In this document: positions 1 through 15,872 of the stretch, one piece after another
Position numbering within the stretch: position 1 is the first letter of the stretch
Layout: each line of letters opens with the position of its first letter
Source: Butyriboletus loyo
Lineage: Eukaryota > Basidiomycota > Agaricomycetes > Boletales > Boletaceae
NCBI GenBank assembly: GCA_038093515.1
Contig: JBBPSI010000383.1
Coordinates: 1-17,061, forward strand
DNA length: 17,061 bases
Direction: 5' to 3'
The notes under the pieces: generated by a model
What the model saw: the letters and a program-made list of their open reading frames with translations, nothing else
The model's database searches: none
Told to the model about the DNA's origin: nothing
Translations under genes and position numbers: made by a program

Positions 1-67
1 AGGAAAGGTGAAGAAATTGCTCGAAGTGTAATTACATCTCTAGAGATACTATGTGATACTTAACACG

Positions 68-3000
68 TCATGGGAGATCAAACTCCTCCATCTGGGTCGT
101 ATTGTTCTCGTCCTCGAGGTCTGTGAAGCTCTGTTCGATAGCTTTAATGTAGGCGTTCATCTTCCACATCTCACCGATCTTGATGTTGGCGTGATCAAAT
201 GCCAGAGCCAGGGTTGGATCTCCAGGATTGTGTTCCGTCACCACGGATGGAGGTATATTTGGATACCTCGCTGAAAAATGGGTGAGGAGGGTGTTGCGAG
301 CCTTCATTCTACGAAGTGGTGAGTAGGCTGCATTACTGCAGAGAAATACCCATACCTCCTTCCAATTTCAATTGCCTGACCAACGGTACTGTGCATCTTG
401 GCTGTAGCCATTTCTGCCTGATCATCAGCCATAGTGGATTCATGAATGAGCAAAGTCGCGTTTTCTCCCGCTTGCACCAATTTCTGTGTGGGAATAGTGT
501 CTCCCGAATATCTGATGGGACAGTGAGTGCCGACGTGTTGAAGAAGTCGTGCATATACTTACACGATGCTCCAACCGTCCATATGCTTGATGATCGCCCC
601 ATGACAACTCGTGCGGTGTATTACATCAACACTTCGGAAACTTTCTAGGCCAAGCGAAGCACACATGTCATGGTGAGCCAAAATGGAGCTGAGAGTGCGA
701 TTGAGAGAAGTATAAATACGTCTACGTGCACGCGTACCTGCGGGAAACCTCTTGGATCAAAGGAGAGGAGAAATCGTTCTTCCAATGGATGGCGTCCACT
801 GAGATCGAAATGACGGGACTTTTGGAATAAGGTAAGAGTCCAAGTTCCTCAAGGGCTGCATATTCATGGAGATACAAAAAGATATTCTCGTGACCCACGA
901 TATATAGTGGCGCACCGCAGGGTGGATCTAGCTGCATGCCATTCAATGCGTGAGGTATGATATCTCGAGAGTCCGAACGCTTACTTGTTGTCGCATTGCT
1001 AAAATCTTCGCCAGTCCGATGTGATGGTCGCCATGCATGTGACTAATAAAGATGCACTTCAGCTCACGAAGGACCTGCCATACGCTTGAGGTTGACGTGA
1101 AGTCATCTCCAAACTTTCGTGCTAGTTGACCCCATGTGCCTTCTCCGGCATCAAGTAAAACATAACCGTAATTTGGGATGTGGATAAGTGTTGCAGAAAC
1201 TAAAAACATATGAGCGTGAAGTCAAGGGCAGAGACATCGAGAACCTCGGAATCACCGTTTCTGTATTTACTGGGCATTGCACTGTTTGTACCTAGTGGAC
1301 AGATTGTTACGTCTCCGCCGCACATCTCCTCCAATTCAGTGCGGGCGACATATGATTGAGCGTCCGCAAAGTTATTACGAGTTGATTCTGGTAAAAATAG
1401 TGGAGAACTGGAAGACACTGCAGGATGGAAAAGATCGCCCTTTCCGGGATCTAGGTCTGGGAGTGGTGGACGTGGAGGATGCAAGTTAATGAGCATGTTT
1501 TTTTGCATTGCCGTAACGTGAGCGGGCAATCCAGGAATATCTTCACAGCCATGTCAACTGTGCTTGAACGAAAAAATATATACACAGAAACGTACCACTT
1601 ATCGCCTGGTCAGCGGTGCACGAATACTTTTGTATTGGGAACATATTGGGGTCTAGCTGGTTGAGTCGAAGCTGACTGTATGCGGCACTCGTAAATGTCA
1701 TCGGATTCGGAAGATACTTGCGTGAAGCGACGACATGCTTGCATATGATAGGTGACACAATTTGGGGCAGGTAATTTGGACACATACATGAACCTCAGGC
1801 CCAAAATCGTCCATGAATGTCTTGTAACACTCGTCTTCGAGGACTCCATCCCCACACAAATGTATTATCGCTCGGACTTTATGTTGTTTGGAGTGCTCCG
1901 CGTGCTTCCATAGGTATTTGGCAAAATGTTCAGAATCGACGAAACCTGAAAGCAAGGCGGGGATGTGGGCTAATGTTGGTGTGTCGAAGAGCAATACTGC
2001 CTACAAAAGCTTACTCTTCCGGCTAAGAGAAGCACGAGACATGACTCACCGCTGGAGTCACACTCTCTCCGATACAATCTTCCGGTTTTATTTCGCGATC
2101 GACAACGTTACCATTACTGTCTTTGATCTGTACAGTCACGCTCTCTCCCTTGACTAGTCTCGCGCGCAGTGGACCGGGAGGCAGACCCAGAGCGACTGCC
2201 TTTTTCCCGTCGAATTTTCCGCGTATCCGGGGTCCTACGATGGCATACGCAATCGTTGGCTTGAGAGTCGGATCAGAATAACCGATGAGAGCTCGTTCAG
2301 GGACTGGCAACGGTTTACTAAACTTTGGTGGGAAGGGAACGCGTGTAACAGTCGAGGTAGCATCTCCCTTTGCGCTGACATTGGGGCCCTTGGCCTTCCG
2401 TGTATCTTGGGATTTTCCCGGGTCGTTACGGTCCGGAGTTGCCGACGACATCTGAGACGCAGGAAACATGGATTGTACCATAAGTTGCCTCCATGCTTGA
2501 GCAACCTCCCCGCTCAACGAAGCAGGATCAAAATCGGGCGCAGATGCGGCGTGGCGCAAAAATTCCGTCGTGGCCATGATATCACCTGCGAGTGGATTCG
2601 CGCCATGCTGATTTGACAGTCGCTTGAATGATCGCCTGGGTGAGCCTTCGCGTTTCCGCTTTAACGGGCCCACCGCTTCACCTCGAGGGTTCACAACTTG
2701 CAAAGGTAATTCTGGGGGGATAACAGGAAGCGCAAAAACAGATATATTGTCGTCCTTGTACACAGGTCGATTCTCAGTTTCCGTACATGATGGGACGAGG
2801 GGGATTTCGACAGGAGTGACGATGAGGTTGTCGCTTGAAAACGTTTGTTAATGATAAACATGCGATAGATGTGACATGGCTCACCGGTAAGTGTACTTCC
2901 GCATAGAAGCTATTAGATGCAAGAGCCCAGAGGGACCGGTGATCTGCATCTGGGATTGACCAGCATCGGCCAGAGTCATGAACAATCCTGGGGAACAGGC

Positions 3001-3245
3001 AACTGAGTGAGATCAAAAGCTGTTGAAATGAATTAAGCTCTACCAGGGAGACCACTGGCGCGTTGAGTGCCCACTGAAGTGAGGAACAGTGCGCGCGTTT
3101 TTTTCCAGTTTTGCCGGCTTTGCAAAAAGGCTCTGGTGGTATTCTCACCAACATTGAATATATATTTGGCGGAATCGAATGTGATCACCACGGTTGGCTC
3201 AGTGTCGGAGGACGCTGTGCTCAGGACAGATGCATTCCAGAGCAT
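68..3245 (-). CDS. trz1: tRNase Z, long form (tRNA 3'-end processing endonuclease), 11 exons
   Basis: Metallo-beta-lactamase endonuclease that removes 3' trailers from precursor tRNAs, expected in nucleus and/or mitochondria. Exons read by hand (minus): 3245-3044, 2987-2885, 2833-2050, 2000-1788, 1737-1596, 1540-1256, 1199-985, 931-738, 688-563, 511-356, 308-68. All ten introns are GT-AG and 47-56 nt; exons sum to 2661 nt, giving 886 residues plus TGA. The N-terminal half carries the degenerate domain (FDSAKYIFNVGE, LTSVGTQR, then LADAG). The C-terminal half is catalytic: PSKYRN (571-576, the PxKxRN loop), LLDAGEGTW (about 591-599), metal-binding HMHGDHH (630-636), SGDT (757-760), HEST (778-781) and THFSARY (816-822). 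Length fits the family. The ATG at 3245 was chosen because MLWNAS..SSDTEP precedes the conserved FDSAKY block at the family's usual distance. No damage seen; probably functional. Gene name is by family. Confidence 0.95.
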
Positions 3246-3493
3246 TGAGCAACAAATTGATGAACGATGGAAGGGACGAGGAGGAGGAATTAAAAAACGA
3301 AGTATGTTACACGGATCACGACGGCATAGCAAGTTAGCCAGCCTTACTGAACCGAGTTTTGACGAAGAACGACCAGTGATTTGAAGGTGGTTGGCTGGAA
3401 TACAAGTTGTTTACGTAACGTTTATCCTTGTTGACTCGTGCAAAATGCGGCAGACATACAATATTGGACCAGCACTTGTGCCAACAAAAATTA
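3246..3493 (-). promoter_or_regulatory. 5' leader and promoter region of the tRNase Z gene
   Basis: About 245 bp separate the tRNase Z start codon from the Harbinger insertion, so the upstream control region is short. An out-of-frame ATG at 3327 opens a three-codon upstream ORF (M-P-S-stop, 3327-3316) before the main start. The main frame stays open upstream of the ATG to at least 3332 and is arginine-rich. No clear TATA box was recognised. TTA at 3491-3493 is the left target duplication of the Harbinger element. Confidence 0.5.
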
Positions 3494-3885: not shown

Positions 3886-5118
3886 TGTAGAGAACACATA
3901 TTGTTACGCTAGCAACACACGGTCGAATGCCAGTACGAATGCCTTGTCACACAGGGTCCACTACAGTTGCAGGTATACACAAATATCTGGCAAGTATGAA
4001 CTAGGAGTTCTAGCTTAGTCCTCAACTGTTGCCAGCGAATAGACAAGTGGTTAAAACTAGGGAATCCTAGTCTTACCACGAGCCTTTATATATTGTACAG
4101 AGATGCGCACAGACCATGCTGTGCATGAGATGAACTACTATACATGGATAGACTAAAGAAGAGAAGCGCAACGGTGATTAATCACACGAGGCACAGGGAT
4201 CATAAAGAAGAGAAGTAAATGGAGATTAAATACATGTGTCGTGACATCATAGAGTCTAGGCCTGGTCTAGGCCATGACATCATATGCTTAGTCAGCAAGG
4301 GATCACATGTAAGTTCCCACAATCACGTGACCTTTGAAAGTGAAATTGACTAAGTCCGAATTGAAAGTGTACGAAGTGTTCGAAGTGCGCGAGTAGAATG
4401 TTATGATTATAACACATATCCTCTAGGTTGCAATTGCTCCTCCGCCTGGCAATTCAGCAATTACATGCATTGCAAACAATCACTTTGCAACTCTCTTCAC
4501 TTCCATTCCTGTTCCTCATCAGGTTCCATCCTATTCCAATATTTCTGTGGTCATCAAGGTTCTGTGTCAAGGTTCTGTGTGTCTGGAAAGTGTTTGCAGG
4601 CAGGTTTCTTTCTATTCAATCTCATACTTATTATATCCATTCAACTTCTATGACAACTGCTATAATTAAATACATTCTGTCAATGATTTCCTTGACCTTT
4701 CTACTTAGTTTTCACTTATCCCTAGTGTTTCAAGTCTTGGGAAATGCCCAGACTATACAAAGGTTGTAACTACAACCTAAAATATTACTTTTCAACTCTC
4801 CTGCCTCTCTGTGCAATTGTCTAGTCACTCGCCACCCTTGTTTCTCGATCTTCAAGCCATAGCCAATGGATTCCACCCATCACCTTGTATCTCCATGTCC
4901 TCTCCAGTCCGTTCCACAGTGGAGGAAGTCCGGAATATCGGGTTTTCTGTAAAGACATCAGTGGAAATGACCTTCCCTGGTGTTCTTCTCTTTGTTGCCT
5001 CTCTACTTCTCTTTGGGGTCGATCATATCACAACTTTTTTTTTATTTCTTTGCTTTTGATTGGATTAAGTTCTTCCTGTAGTAGGGTTCTTCACTCTTAG
5101 TCCTGTCTAGCATCATTC
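3886..5118. mobile_element. Unidentified insertion in the Harbinger nuclease (about 715 bp without the nested LTR)
   Basis: The nuclease frame ends at GAATGC (3880-3885) and resumes at AATGC (5119-5123); joining at AATGC restores HPECIHCELG. This looks like an insertion with a 5-bp AATGC duplication (or 4-bp ATGC, which would give TG..CA ends). The inserted DNA, apart from solo LTR 3902-4414, is AT-rich with a pyrimidine-rich plus strand. It has a short direct repeat (TCAAGGTTCTGTGT twice, around 4555-4582) and a run of T near 5033-5042. ORFs at 4428-4769 and 4811-5059 have no recognisable domain. No LTR promoter motif was found. An unusually long intron is less likely because no GT-AG pair gives the right frame. 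Confidence 0.5.
3902..4414 (-). mobile_element. Solo LTR, family B copy 1 (513 bp, duplication CATAT)
   Basis: Starts TGTTACG and ends TATAACA, with CATAT on both sides (3897-3901, 4415-4419). Closely matches 8853-9347, 12410-12855 and the reverse complement of 13867-14370. Strand is set by the promoter: on minus, GGTCTGTG is followed by TATATAAAGG starting 23 nt after its first base. No internal retrotransposon DNA adjoins it, so it is a recombined solo LTR. It keeps some CpG sites. Confidence 0.9.
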
Positions 5119-7013
5119 AATGCATTCACTGTGAGCTTGGTATGCACACAGATATATTTTCCCAGCTCATAAAAGAACTTCATGCCTTGGGTCACACCAA
5201 CTCAAGATTTGTCTCTCTTGAGGAGCAGTTGGCCATTTTTCTGTATATCTGTGTAACAGGCCTAACCATCTGGCATGTTGGCAAGTGCTTTCAGCAATCA
5301 AATGAAACAATCTCCAAGTAGGTAATCAATATATAGAGGGATTTAACTTGTATTCATTCCCATTGCAGCTACTTCCAAAAAATGCTCCAGATATTCTCCA
5401 GTCCTCCATTTTACACCACATATGTTGAATTCCCAGCTGGTGGATCTATCCCCTCAAAAATACAGTACAATCCCAAATTCTTTCCATATTTCCAGCATGC
5501 GCTTGATGCAATAGATGGCAGCCATATCCATGTTGCACCCCCTGCATTTTCATGCCCAAATTATTGGAATCAGAAAGGATTTGTATTGCAGAACTGTCTC
5601 TTTGTTCGTGATTTTGATCTGAATTTCACTTATTCACTTACAGGATGGGAAGGGTCAGCCATTGATGCTTGTATTTTTGAGGATGTGTTTACAAGTGACC
5701 TTTATATCCCTGATGGAAAATGTCTTCTTGCTGATGCTGGATTTCCACTACAGCATGAGCTGCTTGTTCCATACTGTGGTGTCTGCTACCATCTAGCCAA
5801 ATGGGGCCATGCCAATGTCGGGTATGATTTTCTTTCTCTATATTTTCACAAATCTGATTATGAGAACAATAGGCCAATGAAAAAAGAGGAATTATTCAAT
5901 CTATGTCATGCATCAGCCTGAAATGTCATTGAACATATTTTTGGTGTACTGAAACACTGCTATTGTATTCTGTTATTAGCACCACAGTACAGTCTTGAAA
6001 ACTAGGTGTGCATTCCAACTGCATTGTGTGCACTTCACAACTTCATTCACCACCACAATCCTGATGAGGGTAATCTATCTGATGCTCCTCCTGTAGTTCA
6101 TGATGAACAACAATACCATCCAAATGACATGCTACAATCAGGACCTAGTGTTGAGGAAAATGATAATAGGGAGGTCAGAGAAGCAAAGCAGATGCATGAC
6201 AACATTGCACAAGCAATGTGGGTGGCATATCAGGAGATTTTGAGGGAGGGGATTGCAAATGGTACATATCCTGAGGATGTCAATGATATATTGGAGGAGG
6301 AGGAATCCATACTACAGGACAATGATACAAGCATGTTCTCTGGGGTGGTCTAAATGTATTGTAGATGATATCCTGAGACAGATTTCAATGACAGTGAGAA
6401 AGATATATAATTCAGAGCCATACAAGTACAGTAAAAGATATCAGGACTCCAATTGAAGTTGAAGCCAGTACTAGGTACCTGTATCATCAACAGACATATA
6501 GTAGTAATGCCAGCAATAGAAGTACCAGCATGAGACACAGAGTCAGTGGTGGCAATGGCAGCGATAGAAGTATCAGTCTAAGACATGGAACCAATGGTTT
6601 TTCTATGGAATGCAGAAAGCCAACCATGGCACAACTTGTCATCAGTGATTCCTGCATAGATTACTGAAACACCCTTGGTATTTTCATCTGCCTGCTGCAG
6701 TATGTATATTCATCAAAAAAATGTGCTGGTCCAATGGAAGTATCTTGTCCACACCCAACAGAAGCTGTAATGCCTCCACTGTCATGTCCCCCTTAGTGGC
6801 AGTTGACATGGAATTCCGAAGAATTGATCCAAGATGGTTGAGAGAGCCTTGCATGCCCACCATGGCAACTGCAGGTGTAACATTTTGATTCTTCACCACT
6901 TGAGCTTTCTTTACCAACAGGGGTTTCTTTGATTTGCTGCTCACATCTGCAGCAACTCAGCCTTTTTTGCTAGAAGTGGCGTGTGAGGACATATCAACCA
7001 TGGAAGCAGGAGG

Positions 7014-7824
7014 TGTTATGCTGATGTGCAAAACAAACTAGCAGCAAGCACTCAATAGGGGCTCGAGCCTAATCAGGTAATGGCTGACTTGTATAGATAA
7101 CACTATCAGGGTTCTGCAGAGCAAGTGTCAGTGAGATGTCATGTGGTGGCAACCAGATGAGATCAAGCAGGCTCTTGTCGGCTCTATCAGCAGAGTGGGT
7201 ATGATGCTAGATTGCTAGGCACTTGGTAGATGTGTAGAATTAGCTAAAGAGTCTGTACTGTCTAAGTACTGCTATATATACAAATGGTTATATGTGCACA
7301 GACCAAGCTGTGCATGGCAGTGAGGGCTGAGAGTTCTGAGTCGACTCAAGTCAGAATGAAGAATAAAGGGGATGGCAAAGTGCTGGTAACAAGGGAGCAA
7401 AGCTCTGGGCAAGATGGTGACATCACCAGTGAATAAGAAGAGCTGAATATGAAGCAGCAATGTCCAGGGTGTGGGACCCACAGGGCAAAGGGGACACGAG
7501 TAGCAGAGACCTTGGATACAGGTCTCAGCACACTAGTCAAGACATGTTGTAATCTAGTCATGTGCTAGTCATGTGATGTAACAAATGTCATTGGTTAAGA
7601 ATGAAGGGGATGTGATAGCTCAGCTGAAGGGTCTGGTCTGGCAAGACAGCAATAGGGGCTGTCTCAGTGTCTTGGGACATCTAGGAATAACTGGGAGAGT
7701 GGATGGTAGTCCACTGGTGACTGGGGAGTGGGCAATAGGCTGTATCGTGGAGACAGTGGGGTGGCAGGGCACATTAGCATGGGAAAACAAGTGGCAGGGT
7801 ACACTTAGGGTTAAAACTGTAATA
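7014..7824 (-). mobile_element. Solo LTR, family D copy 1 (811 bp, duplication GGAGG), old
   Basis: On plus it starts TGTTATGCTG and ends CTGTAATA (family end CTGTAACA with one C to T change). GGAGG flanks it at 7009-7013 and 7825-7829. It is the inverted counterpart of 8028-8847. It is strongly CpG-depleted against that copy: most CpG sites there read TpG or CpA here. On minus, GGTCTGTG is followed by TATATATAG starting 24 nt after its first base. It sits inside the second Harbinger ORF. Confidence 0.9.
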
Positions 7825-8027: not shown

Positions 8028-8847
8028 TGTTACAGTTTTACCCCTAAGCGTACCCCGCCACTTGTTTTCCCACGCTCACGCGTTCCCGCCGCCCCTGCCA
8101 CCTTGCGAGGCTGCCCATCACTCGCTCCCCAGTCGCCTAGTGGACGTCATCCACTTCCCCAGTCGTTCTGCAAGTCTCAGTGTCGCTACACTGAGATAGC
8201 CCCTGTCTTGTCGCCCCGTCGGGCCGGACCCACAGTTGAGCTGTCGCGTCCTTCATTTCTTAACCAATGACATTTGTTACATCACGTGACTAGCACGTGA
8301 CTAGATTACGATGTGTCTTACCTTCGCATCAAGACCTGTATCCAAGGGCTCCGCCGTTCGCATCCCCTTTGCCCTGTGGGCCGCACCTCGTGGACATCGT
8401 CACTTCGCATTCTGATCTTCTCATTCGCTGACGATGTCGCCACTTTGCTCGGAGCTTCACTCCCTCGTTACCAGCACTTTGCCGCTCCATCATTTGCCAT
8501 TATGACTCGGACAGACTCATAACCCTCCGCCCTCGCTGCCACACACAGCTCGGTCTGTGCACGATACCCAGTAGTATATATACGCGTACTTAGACTAGTA
8601 CGAGTTCTCTAGCTAATTCTACGCATCTACCAAGTGCATAGTAATCTAGCAATATACCCATTCCTCTTGCCGATAAAGCCAATAAGAGTCTGGTCGATCT
8701 CGACAGGCATCCACCTTTCGATATCTCCCGACACTTGCTTTGCAAGACACCCGATAGCGTCGCTACGCAAGTCGGCTAGTTTCCTCATTAGGCTCGAGCC
8801 CCTATAAGTGCTCGCTTGCTAGCTTGTTGTGCGCTTACAGCATAACA
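8028..8847 (+). mobile_element. Solo LTR, family D copy 2 (820 bp, duplication GAATC), young
   Basis: Starts TGTTACAG and ends GCATAACA, flanked by GAATC at 8023-8027 and 8848-8852. Rich in CpG, so younger or less methylated than copy 1. GGTCTGTG at 8552 is followed by TATATATAC at 8575. The right-hand GAATC is also the left duplication of the adjoining family B LTR. Confidence 0.9.
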
Positions 8848-8852
8848 GAATC

Positions 8853-9347
8853 TGTTATGACAACGAAGTTATCAGGCACACGGGGTTCCGCAACTGTTGC
8901 AGTACTACACAGGTACTGGCGATGGTAATGAGGAATAGCTCAGGACCTTAATCTCTCAACTGTTGCCAGCGAATAGACAAGTGGTTAAAGCTAGGGAATC
9001 CTAGCCGCAACCACGAGCCCTTTTTATATTACAAGGGAATGCGCACAGACCATGCTGTGCATGAGACTAGTTACTATACATGTACATACGAAGGAGTCAC
9101 GAGTCGACGATGATGGGAAATAGAAGTCGACGGTGATCAAAAAAGAAGAGAAGCAAACGGAGATTAAATACATGAGGCATGACGTCATAGAGTCTGGGCC
9201 AGTCTGGACCATGACATCATATGCTTAGTCAGCCTGTGATCACATGTATAATCCCACGATCATGTGTGCTAAGTCACGTGACCTTTGAAAGAGAAATATG
9301 ATGAAGTCTGAATGCAAAAGATAGTTATAAGAGATACGATTATAACA
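8853..9347 (-). mobile_element. Solo LTR, family B copy 2 (495 bp, duplication GAATC)
   Basis: Starts TGTTATGAC and ends TATAACA, flanked by GAATC at 8848-8852 and 9348-9352. It abuts the family D LTR with only the 5-bp duplication between them. On minus, GGTCTGTG leads to TATAAAAAGGG at 23 nt. It keeps a CRE-like TGACGTCA at 9180-9187 and several CpG sites. Confidence 0.9.
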
Positions 9348-9504
9348 GAATCAAGCTGTGTAAATCTTGAAGCATGGTGATTGCAGTGTATTGTGTACAA
9401 AAGAGGGTGATGGTAATAGCTAACCACACAGGCCAAAGAACATCCAAATCCATGGTATTCAAGGACAAGGTTCATAATTCAATCTCAGCCAAGCAGCTCA
9501 CTTT

Positions 9505-9559
9505 CTGCCAACACAAACCAAACACCAACATGGCCAACTTGGAGTTGCTGAACTGGCTC
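9505..9559 (-). repeat. Right terminal inverted repeat of the Harbinger element
   Basis: Reverse complement of the left repeat with 3 transitions. Followed by TTA at 9560-9562, completing the target-site duplication. Confidence 0.88.
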
Positions 9560-9562
9560 TTA

Positions 9563-9873
9563 GGTGGCTCATATTCTACAACACAACAATTTTTTGTGTG
9601 TTGGACACTGAGGATGGGTTGATATGTATTGAAACAGCTACCATAAAAAATATAGAGTACATCTGAAGTGTTTTTCTATTGTAGAAATAGAAACAAAATT
9701 TGGTGCTTTATTATGCATACTCTGTCACTTATGCCAGCACAGAAAAGAGTAAATTAGTAAGATAACTGTTATCATTCTGTCATATCATGAGATTATCTCA
9801 GCAATCACATCTATACTCCCACCATCAGAATATTGTCATTCCCCTCAGTTGCTTCCTCCTCATTGCCTCTGGC
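9563..9873. other. AT-rich spacer between Harbinger and the split LTR
   Basis: No gene, RNA or repeat recognised. The stretch is AT-rich and almost free of CpG, like the old transposons around it, so it may be decayed repeat DNA rather than host unique sequence. Confidence 0.4.
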
Positions 9874-10062
9874 TGTTATAATACTATATTATATCAATGC
9901 TTTTTGGACTTGTCATTTCAACTTTCAAAGTCACATGACCTAGTGCACATGATCATGAGACAGTACATGTGACTAGGTCTAGACAGAGCCTATGACATCA
10001 TGGTTCAGACCAGCCTATAACATCATCAGTCTAGACCATGGTATCATATTTCATATACTGTA

Positions 10063-10268
10063 TAGTGGGCAACAAAACTGTTGCAATGTTGGCAACATTT
10101 TGATTGTTAAGCTAATAACTCAAGAACCACTAAAGGCAAACCTCCTAAACCTACCCATAGCAGAAAGCCATAATCAAGGGCTTTCCAAAAATATATACAT
10201 TGCTTATGTAATTCATTCTATATTCACCAATCAAGCAAGGGTACTCATTGCAACAGTTTTGTTGCTGA
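10063..10268 (+). repeat. Left terminal inverted repeat of the Tc1-like element
   Basis: Matches 11928-12143 in reverse complement. It begins and ends with the same 20-bp unit in opposite orientations: 10069-10088 and, as CATTGCAACAGTTTTGTTGC, 10246-10265. Confidence 0.88.
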
Positions 10269-10285
10269 TATCAAGGGTATCTAAA

Positions 10286-11878
10286 TTAGTATGAAGTATA
10301 TCCTCCTTTGGCTTTAATCACCTCCTGAATCCTTCTAGGCATACTCTCAATCAACTCCTGACACTGTGCAATCCCAATCCTATCCCACTCTGCCTGTACA
10401 CACTCCCACAACTCCAAAACCCCCTTAGGTGACTCAGGATACTCTGCTAGCCTTCTTTTGAGAAGAAACCATAGGTGTTCTATGGGGTTGAGGTCTGGAG
10501 ACTGAGCAGGCCACACCATGACCTCAAATCCATTGTCAGCAAACCACTCCTTGGCTCTCCTGCTGGTATGCTTGGGGTCATTATCCTGCTGAAAGATAAT
10601 GTCCTCTGGAGTTTTTCCATAATACTGAAGGGTTTGTTGGAGTTCATCCTCCATGATCTGCACATAAAGATTAGCATCCATCTTACCATCAATCTTGCAA
10701 GCCATTCCAACTCCTTCCCAGGTCATACAACCCCATATCATCACTGATTTCCTCCAAACTTCACTGTACCTTCCACCAGCCTATCACTTAGGCCCTCTTC
10801 TGCCTTTTTCCACACCCATTTCCTTCCATCTGACCCAATGTGATTGATTTTGGTCTCATCTGACCATATGACATGCTTCCAGTCCTCCACAGTCCAATCC
10901 TGATGGCTTAAAGCAAAGTCCATTCTTGCCCTCCTATGACACATAGAGAGAAGGGGGTGTTTCTTCTTCACCACAGCCTTCATACCAGCCTTCCTGAGGT
11001 GATGACAAATGGTTTGGGGGGAGATGGGATGGTTCTTGATGTCCTGAAGAGTTTTGGTAACCTGGACAGCATTTTCAGCCTTTCTAGTACCAATTGTTAC
11101 GCTTGGACTGGGTAAGTACGAGCGTAGACTTGGATATAGTTCTGGAACTCAAGAAGTCTTCTAGACATTCAAGTCTAACCTTCAAGATGAAGGATTTATC
11201 TGGTGTTCAAGTTGAAGAAAGACGACTTGCTACTAGAGACAAGAGGACGAGGATATCAATGATGATTCCAAGTAGATCTAGCTTAGAGTACAACATAGCT
11301 AGATCTCGTCATTTTATAATACAGGGGAGCATGCATGGACCAAGGATAGAAGAGGAAAGATGGCTATTGTATGATATGGAGGAGAATTGCCATTGGGCGA
11401 AGGGAAGTCGTACAATAGAAGGTTATGGAATATTCCATAGGACTACCTTAAAGGGAAGCGATAGATCGAGGGTTGGATCTCGCTATCTAAGAAGCGAAAG
11501 AAGAATATTCCAAGTTGAGTTGGCTAAGGGATAAGCTATCGTGAGATATGCTTAAGTAGAAAAGAAAAGAAAAGAATGAATCGTAACACCAATAAGACAA
11601 ATGGCATGGCACATGTCAGTGGGAGTTATGAGGGATGGGTGACCACCAGAGGCTTTGAGTAGGTCTGGACAGTGTTTGGAGCAAAGTCTACTAATGGTAG
11701 AGTGGTTGAGACCAGTAGAATGTGAGATCTGGCAAGTGGATTGACCCATTTCCAGGCAGGAGATGATTTGGTTGGTTTGTTCAATAGAAAGGGATTTCAT
11801 GATGGAAGTAATGGAAAAAGCGATGGTGTTTTGATGTGTTTGCACAATGTTGAACTTCTTATGCATCACATGACCCAT
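10286..11878 (-). pseudogene. Tc1-family transposase (DD34E), inactivated
   Basis: Cut-and-paste transposase. The N-terminal helix-turn-helix part lies at 11878-11589 (STCQISHSTGLNHSTISRL) and rejoins in frame at 11094 once the solo LTR and one CCAAT copy are removed. The DDE core then follows: VIWSDETK (first Asp), FQQDNDPKH (second Asp) and SPDLNPIEHLW; the Asp of QQD and the Glu of PIEHLW are 34 residues apart, the Tc1 DD34E spacing. A one-base frameshift near 10744-10750 separates VKFGG from VMIWGCMTW. The C-terminus ends at the stop around 10286. Start is 11878 or the internal Met at 11800. The frameshift and LTR insertion make it non-functional; the catalytic residues are intact. Confidence 0.88.
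11095..11588 (-). mobile_element. Solo LTR, family E (494 bp, duplication CCAAT)
   Basis: Starts TGTTACGC and ends CGTAACA, flanked by CCAAT at 11090-11094 and 11589-11593. Inserted in the Tc1 transposase, which rejoins in frame without it. Strand is set by the promoter on minus: GGTCCATG (from 11341) then TATAAAATG starting at 11318, 23 nt on. Its minus-strand end, CCAAGCGTAACA, equals the end of the Gypsy LTR at 13804. It has many CpG sites, unlike the surrounding Tc1 DNA, so it is younger. A 146-codon ORF on plus (11094-11534) is antisense to the LTR and probably chance. Confidence 0.87.
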
Positions 11879-11927
11879 TGCTTATGTAATACTCAGCCAC
11901 AACATATGATTCTAACATTTTATAGGG

Positions 11928-12143
11928 TCAGCAACAAAACTGTTGCAATGAGTACCCTTGCTTAATTGGTGAATATCTCCTGATATAGAATGAATTACAT
12001 AAGCAATGTATATATTTTTGGAAAGCCCTTGATTATGGCTTTCTGCTATGGGTAGGTTTAGGAGGTTTGCCTTTAGTGGTTCTTGAGTTATTAGCTTAAC
12101 AATCAAAATGTTGCCAACATTGCAATGGTTTTGTTGCCCACTG
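11928..12143 (-). repeat. Right terminal inverted repeat of the Tc1-like element
   Basis: Reverse complement of the left repeat, with a 10-bp insertion around 11976-11990. The 20-bp unit is present at 11931-11950 and, inverted with two changes, at 12118-12137. Confidence 0.88.
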
Positions 12144-12269
12144 TACATACTTAATCTCTGTTATGCTTCTCTTCTCTTTGATCACCATGTACTTTTTAGT
12201 CTATCCATGTATGTATGGTAGATCATCACATGCATAGCTTGGTCTATGTGCTGTTCTGTACAATATATA

Positions 12270-12902
12270 TGTTGAATGTATATTAGAATCTGATTACATA
12301 ACATGTGTAGTCAGATCATATATGTACTTCGAACTCAGCTTATCTGAGTTTTAATCAATCTTGTTCTTACACCATGACATGCATACCAGCAAGCCTCTAA
12401 CAACCAATTTGTTGTGATTGCTAGAGTGTAAACTCAAAAAATGCCACAAGAAGTTTCACTAAGGTTGCAGTACTACACAGATACTGGTGATGATAAGAGT
12501 GATAGCTGTTGCCTTAGTCCCTCAACTGTTTCCAGTGAACAAGACAAGTGGTTAAAGCTAAGGGGACTTAGCCTGAACCATGAGCCTTTATATATTGTAC
12601 AGAATGGTGCACAGACCAAGCTGTGCATGTGACAAACTACTATATATGGTTAGACTAAGAAGCCAATGGTGATCAGAAAGAAGAGAAGTAAATGGAGATT
12701 AAGTACATGAGATATGATGTCATGAGCCAGTCTGGACCACCTCTGTCTAGACTCTGATCACATGTACTGTCCCATGATCATGTGCACTGGGTCACATGAC
12801 CTTTGAAAGTGAAAGGGAAAGTTTGAAAGCATGGAAATAATATAGTATTATAACACAATTAGTGAGTACCTTCAGTACATCCTCACATGCACACTTTCCA
12901 CA
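12270..12902 (+). mobile_element. 5' LTR of the left Copia element (about 182 bp without its nested LTR)
   Basis: Runs from TGTTGAATG to TTTCCACA, immediately before a Copia-type primer site at 12903. A family B solo LTR (12410-12855) lies inside it. It begins inside the TATA region of the older family B LTR; the expected left duplication is ATATA (12265-12269), and its partner lies outside the window. The left boundary is inferred from the TG start. Confidence 0.65.
12410..12855 (-). mobile_element. Solo LTR, family B copy 3 (446 bp, duplication CAATT), old
   Basis: Starts TGTTGTG and ends TATAACA, flanked by CAATT at 12405-12409 and 12856-12860. It aligns with the other family B LTRs but has almost no CpG: GCGCACAG reads GTGCACAG, CACGTGACC reads CACATGACC and TGACGTCA reads TGATGTCA. 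On minus, GGTCTGTG leads to TATATAAAGG at 23 nt. It sits in the left Copia 5' LTR. Confidence 0.9.
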
Positions 12903-12917
12903 GGTTATGAGCCCTGC
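12903..12917 (+). promoter_or_regulatory. Copia primer-binding site, half initiator-Met tRNA
   Basis: GGTTATGAGCCCTGC is the complement of the anticodon stem-loop of eukaryotic initiator methionine tRNA (GCAGGGCTCATAACC). Priming from an internally cut initiator tRNA is known for Drosophila copia and yeast Ty5. It follows directly after the LTR end, and the same 15 bases recur at 15858. Confidence 0.82.
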
Positions 12918-13377
12918 TATGCTCAGTTGAGCCCATTAGTGCAGTCAGAAACAATTTGCACAATGGTGTCTCCTGATGCCAAGGTTAATTGGCTGCAGTG
13001 TAAGTTGATGACAATTTGTGCTGGCCAACTCATTCTTTTTGGTAGTTTCCTCTGGACTCCAATTTGATGTGAAGTAATCATTGTGATGTGCTCCCCAGCA
13101 TTCCAACTTGATCCTTCTACAGATTTTGAAGAATGAATTCATGTCAGGACTTTGCATTTCTCATACAACTTGCATCCATCCTCTATAAATATTTACAATG
13201 TTTACCTTCACTGTGGATGACTATTCCCAGTACATTACCTGGACAAAGGCAAATGACATGATTGCTGGCACCATTATGTGCCACCTCTCCCCTCCTCTCC
13301 AAGTGAAGTATGGAGGAGAGATGCTGGCCTCTGACTTGATCAAGGCTCTCAAGGATGAATTTGTGACTACCAGGATC
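12918..13377 (+). pseudogene. Left Copia leader and truncated gag
   Basis: 12918-13197 is a leader with no recognised gene. An ATG at 13198 opens 60 codons to 13377 (DDYSQYITWTKANDMIAG, then a LSPPLQ..LIKALKDEF pattern). This resembles the start of a Copia-type Gag: W, Ala-rich helix, then LIKAL..EF. The frame is cut by the Gypsy LTR at 13378; codons beyond that belong to the LTR. The remaining gag-pol of this element should resume after the Gypsy element, outside the window. CpG is depleted here, so it is older than its invader. Confidence 0.6.
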
Positions 13378-13804
13378 TGTTATGGTAGTGGTCTACTTTT
13401 TCTCTCCACTACCATTTGGACTACTGTTTTCTCCTAGCATTCTGCTAGTTCCCTTTGAACGGTATGAACCGTTCTAGCTTAGTCACCATTTCCCGCGCAC
13501 GGACACTGTTTCCTCCATACTCCAGAAGTCTCTAGAGTATTCCGTCCTCTTTCGTCTTTACGACTCACACGACCCGATTGGGCCATGGTCTGTGTGCAGA
13601 CCCTTGTACTATATAAACCCAACCTCTGTACAGTAGCACCCCATCTAGTTCTATGCAGTCACCTGCTAGCAATTAGTTCTCTTCCAGACTCTTAGTGTGC
13701 GCACTAAGACATAGTCTGAGACCCATCCAAGAATCGTCTCAAGAGTCCTGCGGCTACTCCAGAGTGCCGCCTCAGAGTTCTTGTTGTTAGTGCCAAGCGT
13801 AACA
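13378..13804 (+). mobile_element. 5' LTR of a Gypsy element (427 bp)
   Basis: Runs from TGTTATGG to GCGTAACA. GGTCTGTG at 13587 is followed by TATATAAA at 13610. An 18-bp inverted repeat, GAACGGTATGAACCGTTC, lies at 13457-13474. The left target site would be GGATC (13373-13377); the right copy lies beyond the window. The left edge rests on the TG start, the truncated Copia gag before it, and TGTTA/TAACA symmetry. No clear primer site was identified just after 13804. Confidence 0.72.
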
Positions 13805-13866
13805 AAAGAACTAGATCTTCACCTTGCTTCTGCTTCTCAGCAGTAAAGCTGCCCTCCCCTCTCACC

Positions 13867-14370
13867 TGTTATAATCATAACATTTATTCGTACACTTCGT
13901 ACACTTTCAACTCAGACTTAGTTGTTTTCACTTTCAAAGGTCACGTGACATAGCGCACGTGATCGTGGGAACTTACATGTGATCTCTTGCTGACTAAGCA
14001 TATGATGTCATGGCCTAGACCAGGCCTAGACTCTATGACGTCACGACACATGTATTTAATCTCTGTTTACTTCTCTTCTTTTTGATCCCCGCGCCTCGTG
14101 TGGTTAATCACCGTTGCGCTTCTCTTCTTTAGTCTAGCCATGTATAGTAATTCCTCACACGCACAGCATGGTCTGTGCGCATCTCTGTACAATATAAAAA
14201 GGGCTCGTGGTTAGACTAGGATTCCCTAGCTTTAACCACTTGTCTTATTCGCTGGCAACAGTTGAGAGATTAAGACTTGAGCTATCCTCATTACACCACG
14301 CCAGTTACTGTGTATAGCTGCAACAGTTGCGGAACCCCGTGTGACTTGATAACATTGTTGTCTCGTAACA
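13867..14370 (+). mobile_element. Solo LTR, family B copy 4 (504 bp, duplication TCACC), young
   Basis: Starts TGTTATAATC and ends CTCGTAACA, flanked by TCACC at 13862-13866 and 14371-14375. It is the reverse complement match of the copies at 3902, 8853 and 12410. GGTCTGTG at 14170 leads to TATAAAAA at 14193. Upstream elements include two CACGTG E-boxes (around 13943 and 13957) and a CRE-like TGACGTCA at 14036-14043. High CpG content marks it as the youngest B copy. It sits in the Gypsy 5' region. Confidence 0.92.
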
Positions 14371-15624
14371 TCACCCACCATTTCCATCCCACAATCAAGA
14401 CACGTTGGTCGCTCTTTCCACATTCCATTTCCTGAACCGGAACCCATTGTCATTGACAATCCGTCACTGCCCCACTCTCCTGCCCAAACAAACCCTCAGC
14501 CCCAGCCCGACCCTGAACCCTCTTACCAACCCGAGGACCAGGGTCTAGGGCAAGAATCTGAACAGGCACCGGACGACGATGAATACAACAGCAACTATCT
14601 TGATAGGACCCCCCATGCCTCTCGCTCTCCATCCCCACTGTACTATCCACCCGCACCCTTTCCCATCGACAACAATGACAACAACATGTCCAGTGAAAGA
14701 AAAAACATTGTCCCCAAGGACTTCTCTGGCTTGAACAAGGATGCCTCCCGATGGCTCCTCACCATGCACACCTACTTCGACATGAACCAGACAGCATTCC
14801 CCGACAACAAGTCAAAGATCAGAGCCCTCCTCACCAAGATGAGCGAAGGAAAAGGAAAGATGTTTTCCGAAGGTTGGATGGCCCTCACCCTAGACAGAAA
14901 CCCCACCGAACATCAGAAAGAATTCAAGATGGTCTGCGAGGACTTTCAAAGAGTCTTCCACCCCTTTGACATAGGAGAGAGTGCCCAAATTGATCTGGGG
15001 AACCTCACCCAGAACAAAGCCAACCACAAGGATGGCTACAACACCTATGTCACAGAGTTCCAGCTCCTCGCAGCCAAATCTGGAATCATCGACGAGAAGG
15101 CACTCATCGAATGGTTGATTCATGGTCTTGACCCCCGCCTCGCTGAAGCAGTTCTCTCGTGCGAGAAAGTTCCCACCACTCTCACTGGTTGGGCCGACAA
15201 AACTTCCGCCTTCCATGTGCAGCACAAGAGGATTGATGACCTCTGTGCCAGGAAACGATACATCCCCACCTTCTCTTCCTCGTCCAAACCCTTGTCTAGC
15301 CAAAGAGACCCAAACACCATGGATGTTGACACTGTCCAACTTACTCCTGTACAACATGCAGAGTACATGAAGCAGAACAAATGCTTTATCTGCCACCAAG
15401 TTGGCTGTCACTTGACCAACCACCCTCGCAATGGACAGAGCTCCTGCAGACCCCCTCCTTGCCCCCCTCGCAACCCCAAACGCACATGTGCCGCCATCTT
15501 CGCATCTCCTGAACCAAAGCCCTCCCCACTCGTTGACTACTTGTCCAAGTTGAAAGGTAGAGGCACCCAGCAGGACAATGTCCTGAATATACTCGAAGCA
15601 TGCTTCAATGATGATGAAGAAAGT
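14371..15624 (+). pseudogene. Gypsy (Ty3-type) gag, truncated by Copia insertion
   Basis: Structural capsid/nucleocapsid protein of a Ty3/Gypsy retrotransposon. The first ATG is at 14686, giving 313 codons to 15624, but the frame is open without a Met back to 14371 (105 more codons, Pro- and acid-rich) and then through the solo LTR junction to a TAA at 13844-13846. Residues from about 5 to 200 (numbered from the ATG) form the Gag capsid region (KDFSGLNKDASRWLLTM, WLIHGLDPRL). A nucleocapsid knuckle follows at 233-246, CFICHQVGCHLTNH, with the order C-C-C-H rather than C-C-H-C. The end (LNILEACFNDDEE) resembles the gag/protease boundary; the last codons after 15624 are Copia LTR. Protease and polymerase are not in the window. 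Confidence 0.83.
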
Positions 15625-15857
15625 GTTACATTTACTTATTTCGCACTCTGCGCATTTCCAGAGTGTTACCTTAGTCATACTGTCAGCCACATTGTGGCGC
15701 ATTATTTACTGTTGTTGTAGCGCTTCGCATGTAGCTTGGAGCTCACTGTCTTTGTCTCTCAGTTTCTGACAGTGAGCTCCAGGTATGTGAAGTTAGTTCT
15801 ACTTGAATATATAGTTTCTGACAGTGAGCTCCAGCTGAGAGATTCCAGCTGCTAACA
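15625..15857 (+). repeat. 5' LTR of the right Copia element
   Basis: Runs from TGTTACATT to GCTAACA, directly followed by the primer site. It contains a 22-bp exact direct repeat (15761-15782 and 15813-15834) and a 13-bp inverted repeat (GGAGCTCACTGTC at 15738-15750; GACAGTGAGCTCC at 15768-15780 and again at 15820-15832). A weak TATA-like stretch lies at about 15806-15812. It lacks the GGTCTGTG-TATA layout of the other LTR families here. Confidence 0.8.
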
Positions 15858-15872
15858 GGTTATGAGCCCTGC
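15858..15872 (+). promoter_or_regulatory. Copia primer-binding site, half initiator-Met tRNA
   Basis: GGTTATGAGCCCTGC, identical to 12903-12917 and complementary to the anticodon stem-loop of initiator methionine tRNA. It abuts the LTR end at 15857. Confidence 0.85.

Follow-up and report, generated by a model that had tools for sequence, protein, structure and literature searches.

A common upstream word at a fixed distance from TATA in four LTR families of the bolete Butyriboletus loyo

The promoters of long terminal repeats (LTRs) are among the fastest-changing parts of retrotransposons. In yeasts they are bound by host activators, such as Atf1 and Sak1 at Tf elements (of which Tf1 is a chromodomain element) and Gcr1, Ste12 and Tec1 at Ty1, and the likeness to the case described here would lie in a single host factor driving the LTR from its unique 3' region (U3); we know of no fixed-distance word common to unrelated families in these systems. 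Here we describe a stretch of 17,061 nucleotides from Butyriboletus loyo (contig JBBPSI010000383.1 of assembly GCA_038093515.1, hereafter the window), in which LTRs of four families, named B, D, E and G, carry the word GGTCTGTG, or a decayed form of it, with its first G placed exactly 23 nt ahead of the TATA box; word and distance alike survive in LTRs that cannot be aligned as wholes. Within the assembly (30.3 Mb, 420 contigs) the window corresponds to contig C383, and all genome-wide results below concern this one genome.

The closest described systems are Tf1, Tf2 and Tj1 of Schizosaccharomyces (PMC4600332), which likewise have a primer-binding site (PBS) complementary to the 5' end of their RNA and a Ty3-type pol. 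The accessible portion of that paper describes no cross-family upstream word at a fixed TATA distance, whereas four families have one here. The modules of the LTR structure conserved across clades (Benachenhou et al. 2013, PMC3601003) are generic, with no 11-nt core at an exact TATA spacing in the available part of that article. In fission yeast, full-length LTR elements are reported to be transcribed in the antisense direction as well (PMC2848245), which is the same kind of output as predicted for family B, but the available text of that report describes no palindrome with mirrored TATAs, and 'TATA' and 'bidirectional' are absent from its main text. Judged by titles and abstract openings, no report of an LTR word shared at a fixed TATA distance was found in the literature, and among the matches listed for GGTCTGTG together with retrotransposons none concerned fungal LTRs by title.

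The word and its distance from TATA

The sequence-only reading had assigned the pair of word and TATA to a Gypsy LTR (our family G) and to families D, B and E, and a window scan allowing at most two mismatches recovered it in all four places, TATA starting in each case 23 nt after the word's first G. On the forward strand, GGTCTGTG lies at 13587-13594 in G, followed by TATA at 13610-13613, and at 8552-8559 in D, followed by TATA at 8575-8578. In B the word occupies 14170-14177, within a palindrome at 14161-14178 that has no strand of its own, and TATA follows at 14193-14196 (+). The E copy, on the reverse strand, has the decayed word GGTCCATG at 11334-11341, which matches GGTCTGTG at 6 of 8 letters, and TATA at 11315-11318; across the genome GGTCTGTG is exact in 13 of the 14 sites of the E pattern. 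Three further pairs in the window, all exact, on the reverse strand and spaced by 23 nt, belong to a B LTR copy (word at 4108-4115, TATA at 4092) and to two B-type copies (9044-9051 with TATA at 9028, of the second B subfamily, and 12610-12617 with TATA at 12594), and a pair with one mismatch and the same spacing starts at 12241 (+). The old D copy at 7297-7304 (-) has a spacing of 24, as had been claimed, and the same spacing recurs among other D copies (3 of 19).

Genome-wide, the exact pair GGTCTGTG-N15-TATA occurs 1788 times (882 + 906), against 0 + 1 occurrences for the reversed word that served as the control for genome counts. The word alone is present in 3095 copies (reversed word, 1105); TATA stands at exactly +23 in 58% of them, and the 1307 copies without it (3095 - 1788) are near the background given by the reversed word. 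The core is longer than the 8-mer and reads GGTCTGTGCRC, with 1793 copies against 28 in the control. A repeat-rich sample of 206,883 bp, picked for its pair sites, has TATA at +23 in 67 of its 83 copies of GGTCTGTG, at a TATA frequency of about 0.004 per position. Dinucleotide shuffling of the four LTRs, 3000 times each, never produced the pair, and produced the 8-mer anywhere in 29 (B), 10 (G), 10 (D) and 6 (E) cases. The extended pair was also found in 21 stretches of viral_contigs, a count that has no chance rate and therefore speaks for neither side; a search of that collection with the pol of G and of B found no close relative of either.

Such an abundance could also belong to a word recognised by a host silencing factor and retained because it overlaps a step that the element needs. 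CENP-B/Abp1-like or zinc-finger proteins recognise repeats, and the extended word stands far above background genome-wide, with its sites clustered among the matches listed. Elements would, however, be expected to lose a pure silencer site, and a fixed TATA distance in non-aligning LTRs fits a promoter role better; we consider a silencing factor an unlikely explanation.

Within families, the conservation of the 8-mer is 1.000 in B (32 copies), 0.990 in G (26) and 0.994 in D (20), where the LTR means are 0.892, 0.867 and 0.898, placing the word at percentiles 0.97, 0.93 and 0.96, respectively, among all 8-nt stretches. The letters of the spacer vary (conservation 0.78 in B, 0.86 in G and 0.73 in D), and the spacing is 23 in 30/32 B, 22/24 G and 14/19 D copies that carry the exact 8-mer. 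Six of the seven E copies with an exact 8-mer have an earlier TATA at 18; sampled E sites also have one at 23.

The position of the RNA start was approached through the primer. In Tf1-type self-priming, as set out in the accessible part of its description, the RNA 5' end primes its own reverse transcription (PMC4600332), and a complementary site in the LTR therefore marks the likely RNA 5' end. In our families, 10-12 nt lying one or two bases behind the LTR are complementary to a site in the same element's LTR just downstream of TATA. This complement was found in 8/8 G, 2/2 D, 2/3 B and 2/2 E copies, as well as in 2/2 copies of a further Ty3 family, H, and was not found for the Copia LTR; the B copy lacking it is the solo LTR of the window, which has no PBS. 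The complement starts 32-33 nt behind TATA in G (8 copies), 36-37 nt in D (2), 34-36 nt in B (2) and 34 nt in E (2), two of these copies having a spacing of 24, so that their distance, anchored at +23, reads one too large. In the window copies, the likely RNA 5' end of G is ATCTAGTTCT at 13643-13652 (+), 33 nt after TATA and complementary to the PBS at 13807-13816; that of D is AGCTAATTCT at 8611-8620 (+), 36 nt after TATA; that of B is AGCTTTAACCA at 14228-14238 (+), 35 nt after TATA; and that of E is TAAGCTAGATCT at 11274-11285 (-), 33 nt after TATA. For the last three, the complementary PBS was read behind other copies of the same family, namely two D LTRs, two B 5' LTRs and two E LTRs, respectively. 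The word lies about 55-60 nt upstream of these starts. Because the inferred start falls 32-37 nt behind it in all four families, the motif-linked TATA is probably the real promoter, and this indirect evidence gives the four families similarly placed starts rather than starts elsewhere.

Family H, with 244-bp LTRs (L036:5818-6061 and L037:2386-2629), is self-priming and has its complement 36 nt after TATA in both copies, with no GGTCTGTG near that TATA. As an internal control, H shows that the TATA-to-start distance is general and that the motif is not. The combination of GGTCTGTG and TATA 23 nt later is likewise absent from two Copia LTR families (window 15624-15857, and the type found in contig C163); the nearest word in the window-type Copia LTR is GGTATGTG, 26 nt before TATATA, in all 6 copies.

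Relationships among the families and the origin of the pair

The pol regions of these elements are 41% identical between G and B, 39% between G and H, 41% between B and H and 48-54% between G and E, the last pair reaching 63% in a piece of the reverse transcriptase. An integrase tree of 15 rows, for which 7 of 18 database rows were dropped as too short, unites E and G in a 100/100 clade of eight rows, with B and H outside it, and a reverse transcriptase tree of 22 rows puts B on a long branch with an unsettled placement. The LTRs themselves were compared by aligning one observed copy of each locally, with 60 dinucleotide shuffles as the background. They are not alignable as wholes, in agreement with the sequence-only reading, and B-G is the sole pair to beat all shuffles (score 34, best shuffle 26), which it does through the motif itself, in the 17-mer AGCATGGTCTGTGCGCA. 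The best G-E match extends from the motif to TATA (score 30, best shuffle 30), and the best D-E match also runs from the motif through TATA (23, best shuffle 30).

The plainest account of the shared word would be that the four LTRs are subfamilies that inherited it with everything else. D and G do have in common a 50-bp leader (82-84%) and similar inferred RNA starts, and their LTR 3' ends are alike, these being the best match between the two, at the level of shuffles. Set against this are LTRs that cannot be aligned across their length and a B-G pol identity of 41%; by these comparisons the account in this form is refuted for B against G and E, and we consider it very improbable in general, though the motif-TATA block alone may have come down by descent under selection.

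A short block from motif to TATA may also have moved between families by template switching or recombination, in which case the sharing would reflect transfer and not long retention under selection. The 17 bases identical between B and G include 5 nt upstream of the motif, the G-E match spans the block from motif through TATA, some spacer letters recur across families, H lacks the motif though it is about as far in pol from B and G (39-41%) as those are from each other, and the well-supported integrase clade holds E and G without B and H. However, no contiguous homology outside the motif and TATA marks a transferred block, the spacers mostly differ, as do the half-site layouts of B and D, of G and of E, and the reverse transcriptase tree leaves the place of B unsettled. 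Exchange of this kind seems to us quite possible, if short of probable. The proposal that a shared factor site was kept while the rest of the LTR diverged stands in part: the pair and its spacing are common to LTRs that do not align as wholes, and in the one genome examined they may be ancestral, exchanged or convergently acquired, given that H has no motif and that the better-resolved tree places B apart from the clade of E and G.

A putative host site and the symmetry of family B

We lean towards reading GGTCTGTGCRC as the putative site of one sequence-specific host DNA-binding protein that acts on TBP/TFIID at a fixed distance. From features read directly in the sequence (the motif, its spacing, its symmetry, its near-exclusivity, its conservation and the position of the inferred start) we infer protein binding, activation and, in B, divergent firing. 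The putative protein would bind GGTCTGTGCRC in U3, with the first base of the site 23 nt, or about two helical turns, upstream of TATA. Bound at that distance, it would help to place TBP/TFIID, and the word and its spacing would be held while the rest of the LTR is free to change.

The layout of half sites differs among the families. B and D have a left-hand inverted repeat, GCACAG-N6-CTGTGC, which is slightly altered in some copies; the palindrome reported earlier for B is indeed present, and D in the window has a near-identical left half, ACACAG at 8543-8548. G has a right-hand inverted repeat, GGTCTG-N4-CAGACC, a palindrome different from that of B and completed in the window by CAGACC at 13597-13602, and E has a single site with no palindrome. 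These layouts suggest that the protein may bind as a monomer in E and with a second subunit, on either side, in B, D and G.

In B the symmetry extends to TATA. A mirror TATA lies on the far side of the palindrome at 14143-14146 (-), and the left TATA ends (14146) and the right TATA begins (14193) 23.5 nt from the palindrome centre (14169.5). The left TATA is present in 33/33 B copies, both TATAs are exactly placed in 31/33, and a left-hand TATA at the exact place is found at 630 sites genome-wide and at 0 in the control. Two B subfamilies, whose left half is GCACAG or GCACTG, keep the distance though the intervening letters differ, and the second has additional TATAs further upstream among the listed sites. 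No TATA stands at the mirror position in any sampled D or G site. At the TATA frequency given above, a chance position of the mirror TATA is unlikely, by a test that is post hoc and draws on copies of one family that are not independent. The symmetric site of B predicts a divergent promoter, in which a dimer on the palindrome could fire sense and antisense transcription; the double TATA would then predict antisense LTR transcription, a possible source of small RNAs silencing these elements.

A further alternative acts in RNA: a common hairpin in the 3' U3 of the transcript, serving packaging, poly(A) or stability, would make the spacing to TATA incidental. The B stretch does fold better than most shuffles (z -2.1; 7/200 as good), and a 6-bp stem forms in that of G, but G folds no better than shuffles (z -0.29), and no such hairpin was seen in D (z +0.74) or in either of two E copies (z -0.24 and +1.49). 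With no stem-loop repeated across the five folded stretches, a hairpin common to all families was rejected, and we find the idea hardly credible.

Several observations weigh against the host-protein reading. There is no excess of the motif in contig C1, which is odd for an ordinary host activator: among 27 copies of GGTCTGTG, listed up to position 847,909, none has TATA at +23, and 2 have a TATA in the searched range, at 26 and 27 nt, on a contig whose genes are unannotated and in which weaker host sites would escape. A host counterpart of the pair, for which the earlier note had proposed to look, was thus not found in C1. The motif of E (8 similar copies) is no better conserved than the rest of the LTR, at percentile 0.32, and in D the spacing of 23 holds in those 14 of 19 copies only. 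Neither the G-E nor the D-E alignment score tops the best shuffle, and the best matches of B-D, G-D (the LTR 3' end) and B-E (another stretch) are not the motif, all at or below the best shuffle. The length of the spacer, finally, is only modestly better kept than that of LTR stretches of like variability (0.94 against 0.75 in B, 0.92 against 0.87 in G and 0.70 against 0.54 in D). What argues strongly for a fixed distance is thus that the families agree with one another, rather than that indels are lacking within each.

A bolder form of the host-protein reading, which we put forward as speculation, is a promoter code that almost only mobile elements use. Distinct lineages of chromoviruses would have arrived by convergence or by exchange at an 11-nt site of which the host makes hardly any use, and one protein would read it, setting TBP at one fixed distance and, by symmetry in B, on both sides, giving a divergent promoter. 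If true, a large part of the genome's self-priming retrotransposons would share this protein as their switch and sole point of control. The pair offers a clean handle on which host factor the elements need, whether one factor switches many families and whether promoter modules move between families.

As a separate observation, the best B-D match between the reference copies, only at shuffle level, is a pair of CACGTG boxes that forms a module upstream of the motif (TCACGTGAC..AGC..CACGTGA), at 13941-13963 in the B copy of the window and 8282-8301 in the D copy.

The elements and their place in the window

Three of the families were observed with paired LTRs, whose length is about 505 bp in B, 427 bp in G and about 500 bp in E; D copies measure about 820 bp. 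B, G and E are Ty3/Gypsy chromoviruses, because their interiors carry reverse transcriptase (RVT_1) and integrase domains and a chromodomain (Pfam; open reading frames of the B element in C6, the G element in C3 and the E element in C185). RVT_1 matches lie between the LTRs of G and E pairs, the G LTR pair in C3 standing at 635817/642409, and an element in C118 with an RVT_1 match is bounded on either side by a B LTR.

No complete D element was seen among the 15 full-length D LTR copies in the sample. Since they are flanked by an exact 5-bp target duplication (12 copies) or a near one (1 copy), 13 of the 15 are solo LTRs. The remaining two (in L027 and L016) run into a leader that resembles that of G for about 50 bp (82-84%) before other sequence takes over, and D may be non-autonomous. 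Behind the D 5' LTRs (L016:1-1096 (-) and L027:9486-10000), the 50-bp leader is all that the interior has in common with G; its reading frame differs from that of G, with repeated CRADCRNPFH-like motifs. A D site 1.9 kb behind a Copia reverse transcriptase in C163 had suggested that D is a Copia LTR, an assignment that was rejected, the D LTR there being a separate insertion inside gag-like sequence.

In the window, the G LTR at 13378-13804 (+), the Gypsy LTR of the earlier note, is the 5' LTR of a Ty3 element, as judged from the same-family LTR pair in C3 and other copies, and the gag of this element lies at 14686-15717, just under the curated Pfam cut-off. The B LTR at 13867-14370 (+), with the target duplication TCACC (13862-13866 and 14371-14375), corrects the earlier picture: it is a solo LTR within this G element. 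The D LTR at 8028-8847 (+) is a solo LTR with the target duplication GAATC, and the E LTR at 11095-11588 (-), with the duplication CCAAT, is a solo LTR inside a Tc1/mariner-like element. The latter element (DDE_3; 10059-12147) has long inverted terminal repeats.

More broadly, positions 1-3300 hold an apparent intron-containing host gene, in which the frame at 2026-2847 matches relatives labelled ribonuclease Z (22 matches, of which the one with an organism name is from Suillus), a result that makes an agaricomycete host probable. Past about 3300 the window is a nest of mobile elements, in which pieces of DDE_Tnp_4 and DDE_3 transposases lie together with a Copia gag and the Ty3-type gag that falls just below the Pfam cut-off. 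The DDE_Tnp_4 transposase fragment lies at 5382-5918 and is presumably Harbinger-like. The Copia LTR of 234 bp (region 15624-15872) is followed by GGTTATGAGCCC, which looks like a half-tRNA primer site (the anticodon arm of initiator Met tRNA), as in Drosophila copia. The old B-type LTR copies at 4000-4430, 8850-9350 and 12130-12660 are, judged by eye, apparently depleted of CpG in favour of TpG/CpA, a pattern that appears to resemble the aftermath of cytosine methylation.

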